From: Acidovorax sp. NO-1
GTDB taxonomy: Bacteria; Pseudomonadota; Gammaproteobacteria; Burkholderiales; Burkholderiaceae_C
Length of the DNA stretch: 64,000 nucleotides
Direction: 5' to 3'
Assembly: GCF_000238595.1 (NCBI RefSeq)
Contig: NZ_AGTS01000100.1
Span: 62,001 to 126,000 of the forward strand
The notes below the pieces were generated by a model. It was not told where the DNA came from and ran no database searches. It saw only the letters and a program-made list of their open reading frames with translations. Position numbers and translations under genes: made by a program. Shown in pieces: positions 3,089 through 8,349 of the stretch. Every line of letters begins with the position of its first letter. Position 1 is the stretch's first letter.

Positions 3089-4048
3089 TCAGTCGCCCGC
3101 GGCCACCAGAAAGTCGCGGCTGATACCGCCCCCCAGGTCGTTCACACGGTCGAGGAATTGCGTGAGAAACGCATGCAGGCCGGTCGCCAGTATTTCGTCA
3201 ATGCGGCCGTATTGCAGATCGGCCAGCAGGCGCCCGGCCCTGCGCTGCGTTTCGGCAGACTGCTCGTTGGCCAGCACCGCGAGGTTGTCCACCACTTCGC
3301 GCAGGCAGGCGTGCAGCGAGCGCGGCATGTCACGGCGCAGAATCAGCAGGTCTGCCACGCGGCCGGGGGTGATGACGTCGCGATACACCTTGCGGTACAC
3401 CTCGAACGCCGAGACGCTGCGCAGGATGGCGCTCCAGTGATAAAAGTCATTTTCCTGGTGGCGCTCGCTGGCACGTCCGAAAAAGTCGTTCTCGACGGCG
3501 TGGAATTTCACATCCAGCAACCGCGCCGTGTTGTCTGCCCGCTCCAGAAACGTGCCCATGCGCAGAAAGTGGAACGCCTCGTCTTGCAGCATGGTGCCCA
3601 ACACCACACCCCGCGACAGGTGTGAGCGGTATTTCACCCATTCAAAGAACTGCCCCGCATCGCGCTCGAAAGCACCTGCCTGAAGGTGCCGGTTGAGCTC
3701 CAGCCAGGTCTGGTTCTGCGTCTCCCAGACTTCGGTGGTGAGCGCGCCCCGCACTGCCCGCGCGTTTTCGCGCGCGGCCCGCAGGCACGAGAGGATGGAG
3801 GAAGGGTTGTCTCCATCACGAACCATGAACTCCAGCACGTTCTGCGGTGTGACCTTGCCGTGCCGGGCGGTGTAGGCAGGAATCAGTTCACTGATGGACA
3901 GCAACCCCTCCCAGCTCTCCTGTGCCACAACGGCAGACTGCGGCAACAGCGAGGTTTCGTAGCTCACGTTGAGCATGCGGGCGGTGTTCTCTGCCCTTTC
4001 GGTGTATCGAGACATCCAGAACAGATGGTCGGCGGTACGGCTCAGCAT
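3089..4048 (-). CDS. Alpha-E domain protein (DUF403)
   Basis: A 319-residue, mostly helical protein beginning MLSRTADHLFWMSRYTERAE, the hallmark N-terminus of the alpha-E (DUF403) family. These proteins are encoded next to circularly permuted ATP-grasp enzymes and are thought to act with them in making or processing a peptide-like product; no reaction is established. The start at 4048 is supported by the family N-terminus and by GGAGGCC just upstream on the coding strand. The gene follows the ATP-grasp gene but is separated from it by 152 bases containing a second copy of its own first 59 bases. In many genomes a transglutaminase-like gene follows; here the next gene is an unrelated convergent VF530 gene. 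Confidence 0.9.
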   Translation of the reverse strand: MLSRTADHLFWMSRYTERAENTARMLNVSYETSLLPQSAVVAQESWEGLLSISELIPAYTARHGKVTPQNVLEFMVRDGDNPSSILSCLRAARENARAVRGALTTEVWETQNQTWLELNRHLQAGAFERDAGQFFEWVKYRSHLSRGVVLGTMLQDEAFHFLRMGTFLERADNTARLLDVKFHAVENDFFGRASERHQENDFYHWSAILRSVSAFEVYRKVYRDVITPGRVADLLILRRDMPRSLHACLREVVDNLAVLANEQSAETQRRAGRLLADLQYGRIDEILATGLHAFLTQFLDRVNDLGGGISRDFLVAAGD

Positions 4049-4200
4049 ACGGCCTCCTTGATCGACGATGCGGGCAGAGAACACCGCACGTGCTGCGCAC
4101 GCAAGCGATGTTGTGTCGAAACACCGCCTTCGGCGGCGTTTTCTGCCCTTTCGGTGTATCGAGACATCCAGAACAGATGGTCGGCGGTACGGCTCAGCAT
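4042..4200 (-). pseudogene. Duplicated 5' end of the alpha-E gene forming a 52-codon leader ORF
   Basis: Bases 4142-4200 are identical to 3990-4048, the first 59 bases of the alpha-E gene, and similarity extends about eight bases further with two mismatches. Read from 4200 the copy starts MLSRTADHLFWMSRYTERAE, then diverges into unrelated sequence and stops at 4042. Its TGA overlaps the first seven bases of the intact gene, so translation could be coupled. Its ATG lies one base after the ATP-grasp stop, which suggests this was the original junction before the duplication. The intervening segment also holds 4072-4087, an exact inverted copy of 3981-3996. Whether the short peptide is made is unknown. 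Confidence 0.75.
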
Positions 4201-4201
4201 C

Positions 4202-5719
4202 TCAAAATCTCCCTTGCGTTTGCGTCATGCCATCCATCGTCTGCGACTGCGACTGAACCGATGGCCCCGCCGCGTGCTCGCCCAGCACCCAGGTGTCCTT
4301 GGTGCCCCCGCCCTGTGACGAGTTGACCACCAGCGATCCTTCCTGCAGCGCCACGCGCGTGAGGCCACCGGCCACCATCTGCACTTCACGACCACTGAGC
4401 ACGAAAGGCCGCAGGTCGATGTGGCGCGGGGCGATGCCGCTTTCCACAAAGGTGGGGCAGCTGGACAGGCTGAGCGTGGGCTGGGCGATGTAACCCGCCG
4501 GGTTGGCCAGCAGCGCGCGGCGGAAGTCCTCGATCTCGGCCTGCGTGGCGGCCGGGCCGATCAGCATGCCGTAGCCACCCGCGCCGTGCACTTCCTTCAC
4601 GACCAGATCTTTCAGATGGGCCAGCACATGCTGCAGGTCGTCCTGCTTGCGGCACATCCAGGTAGGCACGTTCTTGAGGATGGGCTCCTGCCCCAGGTAG
4701 AACCGGATCATCTCGGGCACGTAGGGGTACACCGACTTGTCGTCGGCCACGCCGGTGCCCACGGCGTTGCAGATGCCCACGTTGCCGGCGCGGTAGGCCT
4801 CCATGAGGCCATGGCACCCCAGCGTGGAATTGCGGCGAAACACCTGCGGGTCGAGGAAGTCGTCGTCCACGCGGCGGTAGATTACGTCCACCCGCTGCAG
4901 GCCCCGCGTGGTGCGCATGTAAACGAACTTGTCCTTGACCACCAGGTCCTGCCCCTCCACCAGCTCCACGCCCATCTGCTGGGCCAGGAAGGCGTGTTCG
5001 AAGTAGGCACTGTTGTGCATGCCGGGCGTGAGCACCACCACCGTGGGCTCGTCGGCCGCTGCGGGCGCGCTGGCGCGCAGGGTTTCGAGCAGCATGTCGG
5101 GGTAGTGCGCTACCGGCGCGACCTTGTGCAGGCTGAACAGCTCCGGGAAGAGCCGCATCATCATCTTGCGGTTTTCGAGCATGTAGCTCACGCCGCTGGG
5201 CACGCGCAGGTTGTCCTCCAGCACGTAGTAGTCGCCTTCGCCCTGCGCATTGGGTGCGCGCACGATGTCGATGCCGGCAATGTGCGCATAGATGTTCTGA
5301 GGCACCTGCAGCCCGGCCATCTCGGGCCGGTATTGGGCGTTGTGCAGGATCAGGTCGGCGGGAACGATACCCGCCCGGATGATGTCCTGACCGTGGTAGA
5401 CGTCGTGGATGAACCGGTTGAGCGCCGTCACGCGTTGCACCAGCCCCTGCTGCATGCTGCTCCACTCGTGGGCGGGAATGATGCGCGGGATCAGGTCAAA
5501 CGGTATCAGGCGCTCGTTGCCTGCGCCGCCCTCGTCCTTTGCGCCGTAAACGGCGAAGGTGATGCCCACCCGGCGGAAGATCATCTCGGCCTCGGCCCTG
5601 CGGGCCTGCATCGCGTCCTGGGGCTGTTTGCCCAGCCACTGCGCATAGCGCTTGTAGTGGTCGCGCACATCGCTGCCATCAAAAGGCAGCATGGCGTACA
5701 TCTCATCGAATTTCTGCAT
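4202..5719 (-). CDS. Circularly permuted type 2 ATP-grasp protein (DUF404/DUF407)
   Basis: A 505-residue protein of the circularly permuted ATP-grasp family, which is predicted to form peptide-type bonds using ATP and is typically encoded beside alpha-E proteins. Family features visible are FAVYGAKDEGGAGNERLIPF, the IPFDLIPRIIPAHEWSSMQQ segment near residues 85-105, and the basic/acidic runs DLVVKDKFVYMRTT and LVVKEVHGAGGYGMLIGPAA near residue 390. HIDLRPFVLSG lies near the C-terminus. The start at 5719 is chosen because an AGGAGG site lies just upstream; an upstream ATG at 5806 would add 29 unsupported residues overlapping comEC. It lies downstream of comEC on the same strand. Substrate unknown. 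Confidence 0.9.
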   Translation of the reverse strand: MQKFDEMYAMLPFDGSDVRDHYKRYAQWLGKQPQDAMQARRAEAEMIFRRVGITFAVYGAKDEGGAGNERLIPFDLIPRIIPAHEWSSMQQGLVQRVTALNRFIHDVYHGQDIIRAGIVPADLILHNAQYRPEMAGLQVPQNIYAHIAGIDIVRAPNAQGEGDYYVLEDNLRVPSGVSYMLENRKMMMRLFPELFSLHKVAPVAHYPDMLLETLRASAPAAADEPTVVVLTPGMHNSAYFEHAFLAQQMGVELVEGQDLVVKDKFVYMRTTRGLQRVDVIYRRVDDDFLDPQVFRRNSTLGCHGLMEAYRAGNVGICNAVGTGVADDKSVYPYVPEMIRFYLGQEPILKNVPTWMCRKQDDLQHVLAHLKDLVVKEVHGAGGYGMLIGPAATQAEIEDFRRALLANPAGYIAQPTLSLSSCPTFVESGIAPRHIDLRPFVLSGREVQMVAGGLTRVALQEGSLVVNSSQGGGTKDTWVLGEHAAGPSVQSQSQTMDGMTQTQGRF

Positions 5720-5802
5720 GAACCGGCCTCCTGCCCTCAGGATAGCAAGTTGTACGCCCGGCGAACGGAAACGCCGGTGGCTGCGCGGCCGCGCCGGCCG
5801 GG

Positions 5803-8349
5803 TCAATCCACCGTGGGCACTACCCGGTGCTGCCAGTAGCGCCGGCCCGTGTCGCGCTCACACGCTACCACCGCGGGGGATGAAGACGCCCACGTGGCGG
5901 CGCCGCAGCGTGCGGATTCCACTACCTCAATGCCGCGCACGCGATAGCGTTGCATCACGTCTTCGGCGGGGTGACCAAAGCGGTTGCGGTAGCCCGCCTG
6001 CACCAAAGCCGTGCGTGGCTGGACGGCATCCAGAAATCCCGGCGAAGACGATGTTTTGCTGCCGTGGTGCGGCACGAGCAGAAGATCTGCCTTCAGGTTC
6101 GCTCCGCGCTCCAGCAGGGCATGCTCTTGCAGGGTTTCGATGTCGCCCGCGAGCATCGCGGCAGGGGCGTTGCCTCCTGGCGCCACGATGCGCAGCACGC
6201 AGCTCAGTGCGTTGGGGCGCAGGGCACGGATACCTTCGTCACCAGGCCGGGGGTGCAGCACTTCAAAAACGACGCCGTCCCACTCCCAGCGCTGGCCCGC
6301 AAGACACGGGCGGACAGGCCGCACGGCATGCAGGGCATTCTCTGCGTCGAGCGAGCCCACCAACTGGGCCTGTGGCTGCTGTGCAAGCACCGCTGCAGCC
6401 CCTCCCGTGTGATCCGCATCGCGGTGGCTGAGCATGAGGATGTCCACCCGCTCGCCCAGCGAGCGCAGCAGCGGCACCAGCACGCGGTGGCCCGCATCGC
6501 TCTCGCGGCTGAAACGCGGCCCCGCGTCGTAGAGCAGGGTGTGGCTGGCCGTGCGCACCAACACGGCGTTGCCTTGGCCGATGTCGGCGGCCAGCACTTC
6601 AAACTGCCCGGGCACGGGCCGCACCGGATACCACCCCAGGGCGGGCCACAGCAGCATCAGTGCAGCCACCCGAAGCCCCCTGGGCAGGCGCATTGCCAGC
6701 AAGCCGCCCCCGGCTACCGCCAGCAACCCGGCCCAGAGCGGCGCCGCAGGCAGGAACACCACGGCCCACGGCCACTGCGCAAGCCATTGCAGCATGGCGG
6801 CAAGAGGCTGCAGGCTGAGTGCGGCCAGGCTCCACAACGGCGGCCACAACACCCCGCCCAACGCCAGCGGCGTGACGACCAGCGTCACCCACGGAATCGC
6901 CACCAGGTTCGCCCCAAACCCTACAAGAGACACCTGCCCAAACAACAACAACGACAGCGGCGTGAGTGCGAGCGTGACGACCCACTGCTCCCGAAATAAG
7001 GCATAAAAATGCCTTCCAGCGCTTGACTGATAAGCGCCAGCAGCTACTGAATTTGTAGCAAACAACATCCCCACCGCCACAAAGCTCAGCCAGAACCCCG
7101 CCTGGCCCAGCGCCCACGGGTCTGCCACCACCACGGCAGCACACGCCAAAAGCCACACCTGCGGCCAGGGCCACCGGTTTCCGCTGAGCTGCAGCAGTGC
7201 CACGGTGGCCAGCATGATCACCGTGCGCTGTGCAGGCACACCCCAACCACTGAACAGCGCGTAGGCAGTGGCCAGCACCACACCAGCGGCCAGCGCTGCG
7301 GACGGCGCGGGCACTGCCAGGCACAACCGCGTGGAGCGCCGCCACAACGCTCGCACCACCAGCGCTGCCAACCAGGCAAACAGGGTGATATGCAAGCCCG
7401 AAATGCTCATCAGGTGCGCCACGCCCGTGGCACGAAACACATCCCAGTCGGCACGGTCGATGGCCCGCTGATCGCCGGTCACCAGCGCTGCCACCACGCC
7501 CGCCAGGCGCGTGCGCGCAGGGTCCGCATCCTCCGCACCGTGCACCAGGCGCTCGCGGATCGCATCGCGCACGGCCTGGCGGGCCCTTTCCACAGGGTGC
7601 CGCCAGGTTGCCGCCATCCACGCGGGCGGTTCATCCCGCGGCCCCGCTCGCACGTAGCCCGTGGCCTGCACGCCCTGCTCCCACATCCAGAGTTCAGCGT
7701 CAAAACCGTGCGGGTTTCGCAGCCCGTGCGGGGCCTTGAGGCGCACTGTCATCGCCCAGCGCTCCCCCGCAATCAGTGCCGGCGCTGGGCGTTGCAGGTC
7801 CACCACCCCCGCAGCATCGCGAAAGGCACCCCCATACCACGCCACCTCGATGCGTGGGGGCAGCTGCACCGGTGTGCCGTAGAGGTGTGCGGACTCGACG
7901 TTGATGCGGATGCGGGAGCCGGCCTCATTGCTCTGCGGCATGGTCGCGACCACGCCGGTCACCCGGATGTCCCGCCCCTCCAGCGCAGGTGCGAGCCCCT
8001 GCTCGGCAAACGCCACCGCGCGCAGGCCGCACACCGCGAACATGGCGAGGGCGGCCGCACCCAGGGTGAGCGCCGTGGTCGCCGCGGGTCGCCATCGCAG
8101 GCGGGTGCTGGCCCACCGCACACCCCAGCCCAGCAGACAGGCCCCCACCAGACACATGCCATACACCGCACCTGCCCACAGCCAGGGCTGCTGCAGCTGG
8201 AGGGCCGCCCCCAGCACCAGGCCCATCAGGCACGCCGGCACCCGCCAGGCCGCGGCGGCGGTGTGCCCCGCAGCGTGCCCGCCGACCACGCCCCGGCCCA
8301 TGCACCCCGAATCAGGGACGGCGGCATTAGGCGTGCTTATGGTGGGCAT
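5803..8349 (-). CDS. comEC: ComEC/Rec2 DNA-uptake channel protein
   Basis: An 848-residue inner-membrane protein with the full ComEC layout. An N-terminal membrane segment with a soluble DUF4131 region comes first, then a central multi-helix competence domain (SGLHITLFAWLAA near residue 310), then a C-terminal metallo-beta-lactamase domain with the metal motif SHRDADHTGG near residue 640 and HHGSKTSSS near residue 770. ComEC carries single-stranded DNA across the inner membrane during natural transformation. Between residues about 425 and 450 the reading frame runs through a copy of the family repeat (6999-7062), which encodes a loop rich in Ala, Ser and Gly between two hydrophobic stretches. 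The frame is intact, so the gene is probably functional. No other competence gene is nearby. Confidence 0.93.
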   Translation of the reverse strand: MPTISTPNAAVPDSGCMGRGVVGGHAAGHTAAAAWRVPACLMGLVLGAALQLQQPWLWAGAVYGMCLVGACLLGWGVRWASTRLRWRPAATTALTLGAAALAMFAVCGLRAVAFAEQGLAPALEGRDIRVTGVVATMPQSNEAGSRIRINVESAHLYGTPVQLPPRIEVAWYGGAFRDAAGVVDLQRPAPALIAGERWAMTVRLKAPHGLRNPHGFDAELWMWEQGVQATGYVRAGPRDEPPAWMAATWRHPVERARQAVRDAIRERLVHGAEDADPARTRLAGVVAALVTGDQRAIDRADWDVFRATGVAHLMSISGLHITLFAWLAALVVRALWRRSTRLCLAVPAPSAALAAGVVLATAYALFSGWGVPAQRTVIMLATVALLQLSGNRWPWPQVWLLACAAVVVADPWALGQAGFWLSFVAVGMLFATNSVAAGAYQSSAGRHFYALFREQWVVTLALTPLSLLLFGQVSLVGFGANLVAIPWVTLVVTPLALGGVLWPPLWSLAALSLQPLAAMLQWLAQWPWAVVFLPAAPLWAGLLAVAGGGLLAMRLPRGLRVAALMLLWPALGWYPVRPVPGQFEVLAADIGQGNAVLVRTASHTLLYDAGPRFSRESDAGHRVLVPLLRSLGERVDILMLSHRDADHTGGAAAVLAQQPQAQLVGSLDAENALHAVRPVRPCLAGQRWEWDGVVFEVLHPRPGDEGIRALRPNALSCVLRIVAPGGNAPAAMLAGDIETLQEHALLERGANLKADLLLVPHHGSKTSSSPGFLDAVQPRTALVQAGYRNRFGHPAEDVMQRYRVRGIEVVESARCGAATWASSSPAVVACERDTGRRYWQHRVVPTVD
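6999..7062. repeat. Short palindromic repeat (copy 2) inside comEC
   Basis: This copy lies within the comEC coding sequence. It contains a GGCATAAAAATGCC hairpin, then CCAGCGCTT...AAGCGCC, then AGCTACTGAATTTGTAGC. The other clear copies are mainly intergenic, so this looks like an insertion that kept the frame. It would encode roughly 20 residues between two membrane segments. Confidence 0.65.

Follow-up and report, generated by a model that had tools for sequence, protein, structure and literature searches.

The window, a stretch of 64,000 nt from contig NZ_AGTS01000100.1 of Acidovorax sp. NO-1, carries on its minus strand an operon in which the start of one gene is present twice. The operon begins with a gene for a circularly permuted ATP-grasp type 2 protein (4202..5806; Pfam PF14403, E 1.1e-166), which is followed after one base (TTTTGA-G-ATG) by a leader ORF of 52 codons (4042..4200) and then by the alpha-E gene, which encodes 319 amino acids if read from its second start (3089..4048; Pfam PF04168, E 1.9e-102). 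An earlier sequence-only reading had described this arrangement as a partial duplication of the alpha-E start combined with an inverted repeat, and our analysis agrees with the coordinates: The 59 nt at 3990-4048 and 4142-4200 are identical, the extra copy begins one base past the ATP-grasp stop, and the 16 nt at 4072-4087 match the reverse complement of 3981-3996 exactly. With a few mismatches allowed, the direct repeat covers 69 nt at 97% identity (3980-4048 and 4132-4200), and 95% identity holds over 19 nt of the inverted repeat. In one respect the description needs to be corrected: the TGA of the leader was thought to overlap the ATG of alpha-E. It does lie at the alpha-E start, inside the motif ATGCTGA (4044-4042); it is the last codon of the leader (TGC), not the TGA, that overlaps the ATG, and the TGA itself is located slightly downstream. 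In the ATP-grasp protein of the window (C-terminus at about 4202-4260) and its relatives, a Gln-Ser-rich tail (QSQSQ...) of highly variable length is present in many species.

Since the exact 59-nt repeat ends at a junction after the second base of a glutamate codon (GA|), the inserted unit can be delimited as the 152 nt from 3990 to 4141. Read along the minus strand, the first alpha-E start (codons 1-19 and GA, 4142..4200), which now forms the beginning of the leader, is followed by the unit itself: hairpin H1 (AAACGCCGCC-GAA-GGCGGTGTTT, 4119..4141) and hairpin H2 (the GCGTGC-GCA-GCACGT region, 4087..4103), both supported by covariation, an arm that is an inverted copy of the alpha-E gene's own target GGGCAGAGAACACCGC (4072..4087), a Shine-Dalgarno-like AAGGAGG (4053..4059), and the second alpha-E start up to GA|. 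The target at alpha-E reads CGGGCAGA|GAACACC, and the element sits after the GA of the glutamate codon. In general terms, a core of about 60 nt with two hairpins comes first, then 16 nt that repeat the target in inverted form, then a Shine-Dalgarno site and finally the second start of the gene; the unit length is 115-152 nt in the common forms.

The same structure is found in related genomes. In 28 aligned units (only those of 135-155 nt, identical ones taken once, with L016, L022 and remnants left out), the stretch from leader codons 15-20 to the end of the arm is exactly 87 nt long, gapless and bounded by the same junction. According to RNAalifold it folds into two hairpins and an outer stem. 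The paired positions show compensatory changes, with 54 double-change cells in the helices of these units as compared to 17.5 in shuffled alignments. Both hairpins also covary across gene families, with 141 double-change cells against 55.0 after shuffling, a value that was reached in none of 500 shuffles. The distances between successive starts at alpha-E are 140, 149, 152, 101 or 206 nt and, remnants excepted, all equal 2 modulo 3. Several loci contain two to three units in tandem. Irregular forms occur as well: the alpha-E unit of L016 (genome G012) is shortened and has lost H1 with the frame intact, and that of L038 (G026) is shortened to a state in which only remnants of leader and arm are left. 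In L022 (G003) and L163 (G353), which belong to two species, the leader contains, directly in front of the core, a further hairpin-forming insertion that measures several tens of bases and leaves the leader frame open; this insertion may be attC-like.

The element is widespread and at the same time patchy. A search for the junction in 47 Acidovorax genomes revealed three states of the alpha-E gene: the start is single and adjoins the ATP-grasp stop, is accompanied by a spacer and one further start, or is accompanied by two further starts. Operons that are free of the element have their only start 1-2 nt behind the ATP-grasp stop or overlapping with it. A genome of the same species as the window strain that was assembled as a single contig (G015) has two units in a row as compared to one in the window, and two loci of one genome (L020 and L069) lack a full alpha-E gene. 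When a covariance model of the 87 nt was run on the 47 Acidovorax genomes, it matched alpha-E and also genes for biotin carboxylases; for two of the latter the Pfam domain Biotin_carb_N was found. The anatomy of the biotin-carboxylase loci is that of alpha-E: the first codons up to GGCGA or GGTGA, the core, the arm, a second start and the full gene. Here, the target is roughly CGNGGNGA|RATYGCC, and the arm is inverted from the target of the respective gene (GCGGCGAGATCGCCTGC in L108). Models of the core were then run on 399 genomes that sample the family evenly, and gave 64 matches at E <= 1e-3 in 47 genomes, covering 24 of 141 genera. Reading of the loci assigned 30 of these matches to alpha-E starts, 32 to biotin-carboxylase starts of several kinds, one to a murG variant and one to a chance terminator; doubled starts of alpha-E or biotin-carboxylase genes thus make up 62 of the 64 strong matches. 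As the models were trained on alpha-E and biotin carboxylases, other hosts with diverged cores could have been missed. With stricter filters and E <= 1e-4, 399 genomes of the order, some of them of this family, yielded matches in six genomes, five from the family and one by chance: the sole match outside the family is a terminator. The weak match in G479 and the candidates L114-L123, L194, L197, L198, L202-L209 and L306 were rejected as terminators or chance matches in coding DNA.

These distributions bear directly on the idea of a private and recent event, which had been part of the sequence-only reading and which has to be given up: core and junction recur in many Acidovorax species, in genes of an unrelated kind, and in 24 of the 141 genera that were sampled from the family. 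The reading had also stated that the same arrangement in all relatives would speak against it; the arrangement is present in many species and absent from some relatives, which is only half of that outcome because not every relative carries the element. The 59 identical bases in the window are what a one-off duplication in this strain or an error in assembly would leave behind. Yet the many species and genera that carry the element, most of all the single-contig genome of the same species with two units in a row and the many other species with one, refute this explanation on the scale of the 399-genome family survey, and we regard it as next to impossible.

Searches in other collections gave no indication of a different carrier or of a known RNA. 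There was no match among viral contigs to the two exact core patterns searched, none among phage records to the alpha-E stretch of the window, and no plasmid record covered 80% of either of two queries; in the plasmid places listed (20 of 199 records, and 14 of 14) the matches correspond to the gene start or the adjoining arm. No curated covariance model of Rfam matched the window between 3900 and 4400, and the two matches obtained with L108, L113, L172 and L266 were far below their gathering scores and outside the core, so that the assignment to a known Rfam family was rejected.

The reading frame of the leader is kept almost throughout. Of the 88 instances that could be resolved, 87 have a leader ORF with its end at -12 to +25 nt from the next ATG, and in 74 of them its stop overlaps or abuts this ATG; the other two frames extend that far in only 3/88 and 17/88. 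For this count, 89 instances were entered, all but L163 being resolved, and it was made after removal of duplicates (L108, L109, L110, L112, L201, L210, L062-L068), of chance matches (L194, L197, L198, L202-L209) and of the murG variant L190. L299-L307 stand outside the count. So do L111 and L113, which represent another kind of biotin carboxylase in Acidovorax and would raise it, since both their leaders end at -4. The instances share ancestry and are not independent; a single accident is nevertheless unlikely because the stops differ by gene (ATGCTGA, ATGTTTAA, ATGA). The core is read in the same frame in different host genes, and the leader stays open through it. A stop at the downstream start that is kept in relatives is the arrangement expected of a translationally coupled leader ORF; the coupling, as already proposed by the earlier reading, is read from sequence. 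In the biotin carboxylases, the second start has its own signature: the form ATG TTT AAR is present in 9/9 second starts, in 0/21 unoccupied genes and in 0/9 leaders, as seen in a comparison based on 30 of the biotin-carboxylase loci found. This form may be carried with the element, or it may have been selected after insertion, given that it supplies the leader with its TAA.

The same leaders allow us to evaluate the idea that a decoy or signal peptide resembling the alpha-E N-terminus is the selected product. The N-terminus of the leader is mostly kept, as this idea would demand. The residues nevertheless drift (R-to-C, W-to-R, Y-to-T), whereas frame and stop are conserved; the C-terminal part is dictated by constraints of the hairpins and the ribosome site, and the leaders of biotin carboxylases have a different N-terminus. 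The decoy peptide of the earlier reading is thus not upheld, and selection for a peptide of any such kind appears very improbable.

How the element came to its places can in part be read from the genes themselves. A tree was made of 46 Acidovorax alpha-E genes, of which 20 are filled and 26 are empty. The distribution requires 12 changes on it, and well-supported branches force at least 9 of these; with shuffled labels about 15 changes are required, and 32-38 of 500 shuffles were as low. The tree omits the second paralogue and gene bodies under 500 nt, and its changes may each be a gain or a loss, the two being indistinguishable. The remnant locus L038 was scored as empty, here as well as in the nearest-body comparison described below. 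The clearest sign of gain is L013 (G002): Its second start is that of L007 (G017) over the first 65 nt and then continues with the sequence of its own lineage, and its leader is native-like and resembles unoccupied alpha-E genes. Between the two loci, the unit differs by 2.1%, the gene body by 8.9% and the leader by 12.3%. Such a likeness is not the rule: in 146 comparable pairs the medians of unit and gene-body divergence are 0.174 and 0.1765, with no general excess likeness of the units. The question of which start is the native one has a similarly mixed answer. When compared with the unoccupied alpha-E gene of the nearest body, the leader is nearer in 9/25 cases and the second start in 5/25, with ties in 11/25; with a margin of at least 4, the leader is nearer in 6 and the second start in 1. 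For nine biotin carboxylases, the comparison with any unoccupied gene favours the leader in 6 cases and the second start in 1 (2 ties), and that with the unoccupied gene of the nearest body gives 3 and 4, respectively (2 ties). In the window the two alpha-E starts are identical. A native leader with an imported second start is therefore supported in some cases, and we would suggest it for those loci only.

The murG variant differs from the other hosts. At the ftsW-murG junction of G358, G792 and G789, a core-like right half is combined with a second Shine-Dalgarno site and ATG, and the first hairpin has an arm that reads as the host's native ftsW end in inverted form. To judge from this arrangement, the variant looks like a product of templated copying; it was counted apart. 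For this junction, 20 loci of 29 genomes were read. A related insertion at the start of murG, again with a first hairpin arm inverted from the ftsW end of the host, is present in L266, L267 and L268 and missing from most other loci examined in this genus. Between ftsW and murG, L272 (G778) and L278 (G794) have a longer insertion of another kind.

Anatomy, recurrence in two gene families, covariation, the kept frame, patchy presence and tandem copies, all of them observed directly, point to a recurrent small start-duplicating insertion element of Acidovorax and its relatives, the leader of which would hand translation on to the gene by coupling; we consider this the probable explanation. According to this model, the unit would insert into a conserved target, behind the GA of a glutamate codon. 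The old gene start would then become the leader ORF, and a second start of the same gene would be supplied behind it. As the leader stop lies on or near the new ATG, ribosomes that enter at the old start could re-initiate on the gene. As to movement, the unit might insert site-specifically, or a templated insertion might be passed on by homologous exchange. To judge from the inverted arm, new addresses may come about when the target is copied, as in template switching, and later spread might again proceed by insertion of the unit or by homologous exchange. Any effect of the element on the expression of the gene is at this stage our inference. If the model holds, a small element can reside in core metabolic genes without destroying them, with the old start turned into a leader and a new one provided. 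Nature would then provide a clean setting in which to test re-initiation and coupling and to identify the movers of very small structured elements, and there would be a warning for annotation: some short upstream ORFs are displaced gene starts.

How such a unit might move divides the remaining explanations. It is tempting to speculate that we deal with a new class of miniature mobile elements, a gene-specific start cassette in which the two-hairpin core is mobile and the 16-17-nt target-complementary arm addresses site-specific insertion; such a cassette would be nearly harmless because ribosomes are handed from the old start to the supplied new one, and it would have acquired new addresses in two or more unrelated gene families. 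We regard this far-reaching version as unlikely. A cursory look linked no transposase or recombinase to the element, and short-tract homologous exchange could mimic the insertion of units among orthologues. Another view is that ancient template-switch duplications, one per gene, have been spread exclusively by homologous exchange and lost between direct repeats, with no dedicated mobility at all. Several of our results fit in well: the arm corresponds to the target in inverted orientation, the hairpin arm of the murG variant in G358, G792 and G789 was built from the host's ftsW sequence, direct repeats permit easy loss and changes of copy number, the nearest-body test for biotin carboxylases does not favour a native leader, and units are generally as diverged as the gene bodies. 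This view has to accommodate, however, that the homologous core of alpha-E, the biotin carboxylases and possibly murG must have crossed between unrelated genes, and that the imported segment in L013 stops within 6 nt of the junction. We consider it conceivable, but less likely than not. Template switching, as already invoked in the sequence-only reading, is a fair account of the first origin of the inverted arm and the second start, but not as a private, recent event.

The same arm could serve a regulatory purpose. It repeats the target of the same gene in inverted form, which makes both the leader and the gene possible pairing partners. In a cis-regulatory RNA leader, an attenuator or switch, translation of the leader would decide between the two pairings and thereby set expression. 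The predicted duplexes in the window reach -42.0 kcal/mol for arm and gene and -32.8 kcal/mol for arm and leader, the RNA of the window folds better than its shuffles (z -4.55), the hairpins covary strongly, and the leader ORF is kept. Patchiness among close orthologues, tandem copies and unrelated hosts nevertheless fit an insertion better, the arms are degraded or rearranged in several members, and no ligand or regulatory logic is visible. Regulation as the primary role seems doubtful to us; it is compatible with insertion and could still occur as a side effect of the element.

In comparison to known systems, the start-duplicating element shares individual traits with several of them. Some integrative elements rebuild the end of their target gene since they carry a replacement for the part that is displaced; they are kilobases long and encode an integrase. 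The likeness lies in the carried replacement of a gene end, whereas a unit of 115-152 nt has no room for an integrase. MITEs, ERIC, Correia/NEMIS and BOX elements are small, structured and probably moved by another factor. The terminal inverted repeats and target-site duplication that characterize MITEs are absent from our unit: its ends are the left half of the target and the core, its inverted copy is internal, and its direct repeat is the 59-nt gene start, so that the duplicated DNA is the start of the host gene, unlike the usual target-site duplication of MITEs. A search by title and abstract found no published start-duplicating element, which is weak evidence as most subscription papers lay outside the search.

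Small dispersed repeats are also treated in a review (PMC10969869), which describes the Rickettsia palindromic elements as hairpin elements of about 150 bp that lie in frame in unrelated genes and encode a conserved peptide. They resemble the element presented here as small hairpin insertions in unrelated genes. As far as can be judged from this description, on which the comparison is based, they belong to a different taxon and form in-frame fusions with the host gene, whereas our element stops the frame and restarts the gene from a second copy of its start. Closer in taxonomy is the beta-proteobacterial repeat element BRE of Hot et al. 2011, a GC-rich repeat of 75-91 bp in variable-number tandem that occurs in Bordetella and in Comamonadaceae including Acidovorax, with some copies within coding sequences (PMC3110155). 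According to that report, BRE is mostly intergenic and forms head-to-tail arrays with little or no spacer, with up to 29 copies per genome (PMC3110155). By this description alone, our core is set apart from a repeat of many intergenic head-to-tail copies: its matches at E <= 0.1 number no more than 5 in any genome, with 15 candidates scored in each, it sits at gene starts, and a gene start lies inside each unit.
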